From assembly GCA_000961695.1 (NCBI GenBank), contig LADW01000077.1, positions 1-64,000 on the forward strand: DNA of 64,000 nucleotides, read 5' to 3'. Position 1 is the first letter of the stretch. Every line of letters starts with the position of its first letter. The DNA is from Hyphomonadaceae bacterium BRH_c29 (GTDB taxonomy: Bacteria; Pseudomonadota; Alphaproteobacteria; Caulobacterales; Hyphomonadaceae). Both the position numbers and the translations under genes were made by a program. Shown here in pieces: positions 959 to 3,338 of this stretch. The notes beneath the pieces are model-generated. The model was not told the DNA's origin. It did no database searches and saw only the letters and a program-made list of their open reading frames with translations.

Positions 959-1374
959 GGTCCGTCCTCGGTCGTCGGGCTCGTCTTGTGACTGAATTCC
1001 GTAGTTTGTGCAAACAGATCGCCCTGCCCGTCCACAATACGCTGCGCCGTCGCTGTCACAAGACGCAGAGCTGTCTCCCGGAAGCCATCGGCATAGGCGC
1101 CCGCTTCGAGGTGATCGGCCAGCGAGACAAGGTTTGACAGGGCTTCTTTCAGCTGGTCGGTCACCTGCTGCAGCCGGGCATTCTGTGCATCATTGCGCAG
1201 CGACATGGCCGCCGCATGGGCCTCGGCGCGCGCTTCGGTCAGCAACATGGCCAGATCCGGCGCAGACAGGGTGATCTTCTCTTCAGCGGGTGGCGCCCGA
1301 ACCTCTGGCTCGGGCTGCGGCGTGAAATCGCTGCGAAAATCGAAAGCCTGCAAGGATTTGACCGCGCGCCGCAT
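955..1374 (-). CDS. fliH: FliH/FlbE-like flagellar assembly protein
   Basis: 139 aa, position between fliG and fliN with overlapping stop/start codons; helical charged composition. Confidence 0.65.
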   Translation of the reverse strand: MRRAVKSLQAFDFRSDFTPQPEPEVRAPPAEEKITLSAPDLAMLLTEARAEAHAAAMSLRNDAQNARLQQVTDQLKEALSNLVSLADHLEAGAYADGFRETALRLVTATAQRIVDGQGDLFAQTTEFSHKTSPTTEDGP

Positions 1375-2306
1375 CAGTCCACCAGCTCATCATCATGGGC
1401 CTGGCCGTCGGCGCGGATGTCGCCGCGCTGCATCAGCGTGCGGGCAAGCGCCACGACTTCCTGACGGGCCGTTTCGATCTCGCTGCGGCGCACAGGGCCA
1501 AGCGAGGCGATCTCCTCGCGCAGCAGGTCGCCCGCGCGCTGGGTCATGTTGACGAAGAACACCGCTGCCGTGTCCGGCCGCGCGCCTTTCAGGGCCACAA
1601 CCAGAACGGCGCGATCGGCTGCCGACAGCAGCGTCTGCAGGCCAGCAGCGTCGAGGCTGGTCAGATCGTCGAAGGTGAACATCAGCGCGCGCACCTTGTC
1701 GCCCGCACCAGGCTGGGCATGGTCGAGGGCGGCCAGGAATGTCTTCTCGGACCGGCTGTCGAGCCGGTCAAAGATGCGGGCAACCCGCTCATGCCCACTG
1801 CCCTGCCCGGCCTCAGCCCCGGCGCTCAATTGAGCAGCCAGTTTGGTCTCGAAGGCCGCCAGCGCGGCAGGATGGATCGGGCCGAGATTCAGCAGGCGCT
1901 GCATCGCATCGATGGAAAGCGTCGGCGGGAGCGCACGCAGCAGACGCGCCGCTGCTTCACCGGAGAGGCGCGACAAAGCCAGCGCAACGGTCTGGGCATG
2001 CTCGCCCGCGAACAGGCTCGCCAGCGTGTCCGTTCCGGTCTCCGACAGGAGACGCCAGACGGAGGCGCCGGTTTCCGCTGGCTTCCGCAGCCGCTGATGC
2101 GCCGCCATGAACTGGTTGACCGCTTCGCTCTCGCCATCGGCAGACGGACCCAGCGTGTCCATCGCGGCGGTCAGGGCCTGAACTTCGGATTTCGACAGTT
2201 CCGCCCAGATCGGCGCGGCATCAGGTCCAAGCGCACGCATCAGGCGGGCCGAGCGCATCAGGCCGTCAGCGGGGGCGGTTTCGCGGGTGAGTGTCAGCGC
2301 GCTCAT
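1374..2306 (-). CDS. fliG: Flagellar motor switch protein FliG
   Basis: 310 aa; EHAQTVALALSRL (EHPQ-like) and VRALMFTFDDLTSLD motifs. Confidence 0.93.
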   Translation of the reverse strand: MSALTLTRETAPADGLMRSARLMRALGPDAAPIWAELSKSEVQALTAAMDTLGPSADGESEAVNQFMAAHQRLRKPAETGASVWRLLSETGTDTLASLFAGEHAQTVALALSRLSGEAAARLLRALPPTLSIDAMQRLLNLGPIHPAALAAFETKLAAQLSAGAEAGQGSGHERVARIFDRLDSRSEKTFLAALDHAQPGAGDKVRALMFTFDDLTSLDAAGLQTLLSAADRAVLVVALKGARPDTAAVFFVNMTQRAGDLLREEIASLGPVRRSEIETARQEVVALARTLMQRGDIRADGQAHDDELVD

Positions 2307-2965
2307 GCATTGCCTCCGCGATTGCCCATCCAGCCACGCACGACATCTGCAGCGCGAGCCGGGTCATGGCGGGCAAGGTCGGCGGCTTCGCTGCTGCGAA
2401 CAGGGGCGGCTTGTGCGACGGGCTCGACCGGTGTGGGCGACCTGCGGGCCGGCAGGGCCTCGCGGACGAGTTCGACCGGGGCGTCCTCGCGGCGCGGCGC
2501 GGTGAAACCGATCCAGCCGGCCAGACCTGCCAGCAGCGCCAGAAGAGTCAGCTCGGCCCAGTCACCCGGCAGGGGCGCACCGGTCACACCAGGGGCGAAT
2601 GGCACACGCTGGATCACAGTACGATCACCGTCGCCGTCAGATAGACCCCCGGCAAGCGACACGACATTCACCAGCGTGGCGTCGGGGATCACGGAATTTT
2701 CGTCGAGAAGAACAAGGATTTGCCGTCCCTTGCCGGACTGGCGCGCCACCGAGACGCGCACATGCCCCTGCCCCGCAACCGCTTCTGCGACCGAGAGAAG
2801 TGAGGCTTCAGCCTGGGAAAGCGGGCCGGGGCTGGCCGGGGCGCGGGCAAGGATTTCGCTGCCGCGCCAGGCCAGAAGGCCAATAGCTACAACACATGCC
2901 GCGAACGCGAGCGCCCGTGTGGAAGGCGTCGCGCCGCGCGAGATTCCGGGTTTGCCGTACGCCAT
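2303..2965 (-). CDS. fliF: Severely shortened FliF-like MS-ring protein (220 aa)
   Basis: TM1 (ALAFAACVVAIGLLAW), RBM3-like segment (SVAEAVAGQGHVRVSVARQ...QILVLLDENS...VNVVSLAGGLSDGDGDRTVIQRVPFA), TM2 (AELTLLALLAGLAGWIGF), C-terminal FliG-binding-like ARHDPARAADVVRGWMGN; 4-bp overlap with fliG. In-frame TGA 15 nt upstream of ATG. Confidence 0.75.
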   Translation of the reverse strand: MAYGKPGISRGATPSTRALAFAACVVAIGLLAWRGSEILARAPASPGPLSQAEASLLSVAEAVAGQGHVRVSVARQSGKGRQILVLLDENSVIPDATLVNVVSLAGGLSDGDGDRTVIQRVPFAPGVTGAPLPGDWAELTLLALLAGLAGWIGFTAPRREDAPVELVREALPARRSPTPVEPVAQAAPVRSSEAADLARHDPARAADVVRGWMGNRGGNA

Positions 2966-3025: not shown

Positions 3026-3040
3026 TAAAGTTTGGTTTAA
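3026..3040 (-). promoter_or_regulatory. Candidate CtrA box upstream of fliF (TTAA-N7-TTTA on minus strand)
   Basis: + strand TAAAGTTTGGTTTAA; 7/8 match to TTAA-N7-TTAA, ~60 bp upstream of fliF ATG. Confidence 0.45.
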
Positions 3041-3047
3041 CAGGCGC

Positions 3048-3338
3048 CTAGCGGCGGTACTGCTGCAGCCGGGTCGTCCGAAGCCCCTTGGCCCCATGGC
3101 GCAGGTACAGGCGTTCCCAGCCTTCGAATTCCTCGTCCGTCAGATTGTAACGGTCGCAGGCGGCCTTGCGGCTGAGGAGACCACCAGAGACGGCGGCAAC
3201 CACTTCCGCCTTGCGGCGGGTGACCCAACGGGAAATGCTTGGCGACGGAAGATCCGCCAGGGTGAGCTTCTGGCCGTCAGGGCCTTTGACGCTCGTCGGT
3301 TTTGCGTTCTGCTGTTCCATATCCACACCATCTATCAA
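3048..3338 (-). CDS. sciP: SciP-like (DUF1153) CtrA-inhibitory protein
   Basis: SISRWVTRRKAEVVAAVSGGLLSRKAACDRYNLTDEEFEGWERLYLRHGAKGLRTTRLQQYR; start possibly the internal Met at 3320. Confidence 0.85.
   Translation of the reverse strand: MIDGVDMEQQNAKPTSVKGPDGQKLTLADLPSPSISRWVTRRKAEVVAAVSGGLLSRKAACDRYNLTDEEFEGWERLYLRHGAKGLRTTRLQQYRR

Follow-up and report, generated by a model that had tools for sequence, protein, structure and literature searches.

A miniature FliF in the Hyphomonadaceae points to a possible rotor-stator motor maintained apart from the flagellum

Introduction

The flagellum is the textbook example of a machine made of separable modules. FliF, in its canonical form, is a protein of about 550 residues with RBM1, RBM2 and a split RBM3 that carries a long beta-collar insertion. 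Other systems resemble single parts of this machine: SpoIIIAG-type standalone ring-building proteins consist of a transmembrane (TM) helix and a single RBM ring domain, while the Agl-Glt and GldLM gliding motors exert a MotAB-like, ion-driven force on a non-flagellar load and have no C-ring rotor. To our knowledge there is no example of a rotor-plus-stator module standing alone, and none was found in the open-access papers searched. The non-flagellar type III secretion system represents a flagellar sub-machine in another use (PMC3459982), and partial flagellar gene sets have been described in non-flagellated bacteria of Lysobacter (PMC9927559) and of the Chlamydiota (PMC12199754); in Lysobacter fliG, fliM, motA and motB are lost and the flagellar type III secretion system is still functional (PMC9927559).

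Here we describe a locus of Hyphomonadaceae bacterium BRH_c29 (assembly GCA_000961695.1, contig LADW01000077.1, positions 1-64,000 of the forward strand; the whole of this 64-kb stretch is referred to as the window) that encodes a FliF-like protein of only 220 residues, miniFliF. With the bacterial flagellar motor the system has in common homologous parts, the three-domain layout of FliG and its torque charges, the MotB aspartate, the FliG-binding tail of FliF, and a locus that appears to have arisen from that of flagellar fliF at its original site; it differs in the reduction of FliF from about 550 to 220 residues, in the absence of an FlhA of its own and of rod, hook and filament, and in being kept without a flagellum. 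The half that survives is the reverse of that in the non-flagellar type III secretion system: here a putative motor without export, there export without a motor. Likewise, some flagellar genes outlive the flagellum both in Lysobacter and here, but the genomes with miniFliF keep the reverse set. SpoIIIAG-type proteins share with miniFliF the TM helix and the single RBM, to which miniFliF adds a second TM helix, a FliG-binding tail and descent from FliF. Finally, relatives of the stator occur without a flagellum in the Agl-Glt and GldLM systems as well, whereas a rotor is retained only in the miniFliF system.

Results and Discussion

The miniFliF gene and its product

The features of the locus are listed in Table 1. 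The gene order after miniFliF, all on the same strand, is fliG, fliH, fliN and flhF; miniFliF and fliG overlap by an ATGA, an in-frame TGA (2978-2980) lies just upstream of the miniFliF ATG, and the gap to sciP is about 82 bp. FliH is very divergent, and its assignment combines a weak NCBIfam match with position and conservation. The flhF gene is complete in the orthologous locus of G006 (L109:12255-13265), where it encodes an SRP54 GTPase. The place of flhF behind fliN is taken, in some Hyphomonas (G041, G021), by a gene for a biopterin-dependent aromatic amino acid hydroxylase (L110:10788-11660, L113:11914-12792).

Table 1. Annotated features of the miniFliF locus in the window.
Feature	Position	Strand	Basis
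miniFliF, reduced FliF, 220 aa	2303..2965	-	ATG-start ORF; profile, hhalign, AlphaFold2, Foldseek; 36/200 order genomes
miniFliF TM helix 1, aa 14-39	2849..2926	-	AlphaFold2/DSSP
miniFliF single ring-building domain, RBM3 halves joined (predicted), aa 51-121	2603..2815	-	AlphaFold2 and hhalign
miniFliF TM helix 2, aa 133-155	2501..2569	-	AlphaFold2
miniFliF FliG-binding-like tail, aa 191-214, motif DPARAADVVRGWM	2324..2395	-	FliF C-terminus matches, PDB chains 8z5s, 6scn
FliG, 310 aa, N/M/C domains, torque charges conserved	1374..2306	-	Pfam FliG_N/M/C; torque residues
FliH-like, 139 aa	955..1374	-	weak NCBIfam FliH match, E=0.0084; position and conservation
FliN, 88 aa	692..958	-	FliMN_C, E=5e-21; NCBIfam fliN
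FlhF N-terminal part, gene truncated by contig edge	1..528	-	ORF; complete G006 orthologue
CtrA-box-like element TTAA-N7-TTTA, 5' of miniFliF	3026..3040	-	single match in window, 0.12 expected
sciP (CtrA inhibitor), upstream neighbour	3048..3338	-	NF051866 CtrAInhibSciP, E=5e-38; constant neighbour

As a single sequence miniFliF has no match in Pfam or NCBIfam, the RBM1/RBM2 family PF01514 included. A family profile of 26 sequences matches M-ring chains in the PDB with E-values of 1.5e-5 to 4.4e-4, and these matches run through the second half of RBM3 and the FliG-binding tail. In the profile-profile comparison with FliF (hhalign), the first half of RBM3 is matched by residues 51-80, and its second half together with TM2 and the tail by residues 67-217 (probability 96.8% for the latter). 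The AlphaFold2 model, computed on an alignment of 26 sequences, contains two TM helices, between them an alpha-beta-beta-alpha-beta fold (pLDDT about 90), and two C-terminal helices (191-214; the other limits are those of Table 1). Foldseek returned FliF RBM3/S-ring and PrgK among the matches, with probabilities of 0.84-1.00 for the FliF chains and every E-value at 0.001 or above. The hallmarks of FliF are thus recognizable: two TM helices flanking a periplasmic ring-building region (AlphaFold2), an RBM3 domain (both halves by hhalign, the Foldseek E-values being weak), and a FliG-binding-like C-terminal segment (match to the FliF tail in the PDB) encoded in an operon with fliG. The beta-collar insertion is absent and the RBM3 halves are contiguous in both the model and the hhalign alignment. 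Overall, the profile, hhalign, AlphaFold2 and Foldseek results indicate the loss of RBM1, RBM2 and the beta-collar and a fusion of the two halves of RBM3; as judged by sequence comparison and modelling, miniFliF is a true descendant of FliF, predicted to have, in this order, TM1, a single ring-building domain, TM2 and the FliG-binding tail.

A first-pass annotation, made from the sequence alone, had already described the 220-aa frame upstream of and overlapping fliG, the TGA 5' of its ATG and a distance of ~80 bp to sciP, had recognized TM1, an RBM3-like stretch, TM2 and a FliG-binding-like tail, and had proposed that RBM1, RBM2 and the collar were lost and the RBM3 halves joined. The sequence, together with the HHpred/AlphaFold-type comparison with FliF that it suggested, bears out this description.

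Distribution and selection

Among 200 genomes of the order, 36 were found to carry the gene; they belong to a single family, in which they fall into three genus groups; Hyphomonas and Henriciella are the relatives with names. The order sciP - miniFliF - FliG - FliH is the same in all 30 loci examined, most of which also have FliN inside the stretch examined, and flhF, flhG and ctrA follow downstream in G006, G026 and G060. Pairwise dN/dS values of miniFliF range from 0.08 to 0.38, pairs of flagellum-less genomes (see below) included, and there are no internal stops. Because the same architecture is shared by about 40 genomes and dN/dS is well below 1, the gene looks functional, and both a pseudogene and an assembly deletion are ruled out.

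Slow decay of a functionless flagellar operon would fit the fast divergence of miniFliF (35% identity within a genus) and the complete loss of the operon in a few genomes (G203, G200). Against it stand the dN/dS values, the lack of stops, the invariant residues, the preservation of promoter element and operon order across several genera, and the joint retention of FliM2, MotA2 and MotB2, which are unlinked to the operon: in the face of these, it is scarcely credible that the locus is vestigial.

The flagellum of the source organism

In the source genome the PF01514 search identifies a single protein, a FliF of 504 residues on contig C26, surrounded by a cluster with FliG, FliH, FliN, FliP, FlgE, FlgK, FlgL, FlgI and MotB (gene names derived partly from sequence reading and partly from domain searches). 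The genome contains two FliG, four proteins of the FliM/FliN family, two MotA and two MotB, but only a single full-length FliF and a single export gate. Its FlhA is the only one, as it is in almost every relative that has the operon, and belongs to the lower-scoring, fla2-like type; no FlhA of the miniFliF system's own was found in it. The flagellum proper of this organism is encoded by this second cluster, which is fla2-like and has a FliF of its own.

Since a full-length fliF is encoded elsewhere, in a separate and complete flagellar cluster with its own fliG, fliH, fliN and fliP, miniFliF is neither the sole FliF of the organism nor the MS ring of its flagellum; and since the PF01514 search finds no separate RBM1/RBM2 protein, it is not one half of a split FliF. 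The first-pass annotation had proposed a functional reduced MS ring or a lineage-specific split of FliF. The gene does look functional; its place in the MS ring of this flagellum and the split have to be abandoned. A second full-length fliF, which was to have exposed the gene as a pseudogene or paralog, does exist, but the pseudogene conclusion attached to it fails on conservation and dN/dS, the survey of related genomes having been suggested by the same annotation.

Origin of the locus

Sister genera of the same family have the arrangement sciP - full-length fliF - fliG - fliH - fliN - flbD - flhA - flhF - flhG (L115; L116 is similar), which, minus flbD, flhA, the N-terminal part of FliF and its collar, equals the present miniFliF locus. 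In one sister genome (G190, L116:11383-14514) the FlhA frame extends to 1043 residues and flhG has no separately called flhF in front of it; this may be an FlhA-FlhF fusion. The element TTAA-N7-TTTA, CtrA-box-like by sequence, lies upstream of full-length fliF in 5 of 5 sister loci examined and also 5' of most miniFliF genes, those of flagellum-less genomes included; the window contains no exact CtrA box (TTAA-N7-TTAA). In the FliG tree the window-type proteins form a clade of their own, separate from the order-type and fla2-type clades; the deep branches are long, so that synteny and the promoter element, rather than the tree, are the main grounds for orthology. The best explanation of these sequence comparisons is that the locus would be an ancestral Caulobacterales-type flagellar locus in which FliF shrank in place and flbD-flhA was deleted.

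Genomes that keep the motor genes without an apparent flagellum

When 105 genomes of the family were sorted by FliG type, window-type FliG was the only type in eight (G041, G238, G026, G207, G211, G201, G202, G248), which are spread over four genus groups and five of which are at least 93% complete; G041 belongs to the genus group of the window and G026 to that of Henriciella. Rod/hook proteins (PF00460) have zero matches in all eight, compared with 4-6 in flagellated controls, and no FliF or FlhA was detected in G041 and G026, the two tested. Nevertheless, miniFliF, FliG, FliH and FliN are kept in every one of the eight (six operons were read directly). Each has exactly one MotB, versus two in the flagellated Hyphomonas and Henriciella tested, and the one retained is always the second (MotB2); G041 and G026, again the two tested, also keep the second FliM (open frames of 377 and 346 residues) and the second MotA. 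As for genomes without window-type FliG, G203 and G200 have no MotB and G214 has one. G036 (L022), which is flagellated, clusters in the FliG tree with G238 and not with G041 (support 0.97), a topology that suggests more than one separate loss of the flagellum.

These genomes bear directly on the idea that the operon is an accessory of the fla2-like flagellum, providing a second C-ring or an assembly factor for the same organelle. That flagellum does co-occur in most operon-bearing genomes; however, its cluster already has its own FliF, FliG, FliH, FliN, FliM and MotA, and the operon, along with a dedicated stator, persists in eight genomes that have no rod/hook genes (in two, FliF and FlhA are missing as well), so that we regard a role in the existing flagellum as improbable.

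It could be objected that the flagellum-less genomes are artefacts of assembly or binning, since the fla2 genes sit together in one block, several tens of kb long, which could be missing from a metagenome-assembled genome (MAG), and some of the eight are MAGs (G041 and G211 have matching MAG records). We examined G026 (24 contigs, 99% complete) in this respect, using 15 kb of every contig end and the small contigs whole. None of the genes that flank the cluster in G016/G060 (rnd, lptC, lptA, rpoN, hpf; NDUFA9-like, uppP, gltD, gltB) occurs at a contig end, where only distant lptB paralogues match this set, and the immediate neighbours of the G065-type cluster are likewise at no contig end. Contig C13 ends in an apparent rRNA operon, beyond which a G065-type cluster would lie. 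Three small contigs, examined for rRNA as a guide to whether G026 is an isolate or a MAG, had none. The contig ends of G026 thus argue against a missing contig, although a cluster at a different location would escape this test; with eight genomes from four genus groups showing the same pattern, an artefact appears very improbable.

A gene for FlbT, normally a regulator of flagellin, lies near FliM2 and a DksA-like gene and is kept in flagellum-less G041 and G026 (L158:3496-3876, L159:12088-12507, L160:12884-13270); flagellated Henriciella has another FlbT inside the fla cluster (L287).

Rotor and stator components

In 31 window-type FliG proteins the equivalents of K264 and R281 are invariant, D289 is always E or D, and R297 is R or K. 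These torque charges are kept in the flagellum-less genomes, with the exception of G213, where their loss coincides with that of MotB. By contrast, the flagellar, fla2-type FliG in these genomes no longer has the K264 equivalent and in most cases lacks that of R297 (for example, L002:7511-8620), and its contact with the stator must therefore be different. R90 and E98 of MotA are reported to contact D289 and R281 of FliG (PMC7564593). On the stator side, MotB2 shows the AYADF motif with its aspartate in the sequences read and an OmpA domain in those scanned, and in MotA2 the two prolines and the conserved glutamate are present, also in flagellum-less genomes. The FliMN_C domain of FliM2 is significant, while its middle domain (PF02154) was detected only at E=0.23 in one of four; the N-terminus reads AEIEALLRPDL, a CheY-binding-like motif. 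The locus of G213 (L195) represents a decaying version, with FliG, FliH, FliN and SciP present and no miniFliF detected.

Two conserved frames without a Pfam match accompany FliM2, one for a protein of 425-431 residues with two likely TM helices (L160:10619-11896, L158:4858-6153, L159:9831-11126) and one of 105 residues (L158:3873-4190); both are possible partners of the motor. No candidate was found for a load protein of the miniFliF motor.

A non-rotating complex could also be imagined: a polar signalling or landmark hub, in which the ring serves to hold FlhF/FlhG, CheY or c-di-GMP proteins or as a scaffold in cell-cycle control, and the stator only senses load. The position of the locus between sciP and, past flhG, ctrA in several genomes, and the CheY-binding-like motif of FliM2, are consistent with such a hub, as is the flagellum-mediated surface sensing reported for Caulobacter (PMC11580411). 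Yet a pure scaffold would need neither the torque charges of FliG nor the proton aspartate of MotB, the prolines of MotA and a peptidoglycan-binding MotB, all of which are conserved; for this reason we consider a purely signalling role unlikely.

The proposed motor

Homology, synteny, conservation, intact key residues and retention where flagellar genes were not found lead us to propose, with a probability of roughly 60%, that the miniFliF locus is a flagellar locus converted in place to a stripped, flagellum-independent rotor-stator motor. Along this route FliF would have been reduced to a minimal membrane ring of TM1, one ring-building domain, TM2 and FliG-binding tail, and flbD and flhA deleted, with FliG, FliM2, FliN, FlhF and FlhG retained next to a separate stator, MotA2/MotB2. 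The more specific picture, in which a minimal MS ring with a single RBM carries a C-ring and works by itself as an ion-driven rotary motor, devoid of export and filament and turning some load in the envelope, is more tentative, and we would place it slightly short of an even chance. According to it, miniFliF would assemble into an inner-membrane ring on which FliG, FliM and FliN build the C-ring; MotA2B2 stators, anchored to peptidoglycan, would push the FliG ring by ion flow; and FlhF/FlhG would position the motor, probably at a pole, under the control of CtrA and SciP. As export gate, rod, hook and filament are all absent from it, such an energised rotor would do its work elsewhere in the envelope, and surface contact, envelope cargo, or mechanical or cell-cycle signalling may be its load.

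Rotor and stator genes are intact even in apparently flagellum-less relatives, which suggests that the motor probably serves a purpose other than swimming. If it works, miniFliF would be the smallest natural MS ring, and RBM1, RBM2 and the collar would be dispensable once export and rod are gone. A further question would then be what load a propeller-less flagellar motor can move, and it would be posed in Hyphomonas, the genus of the budding model species H. neptunium (PMC7200025).
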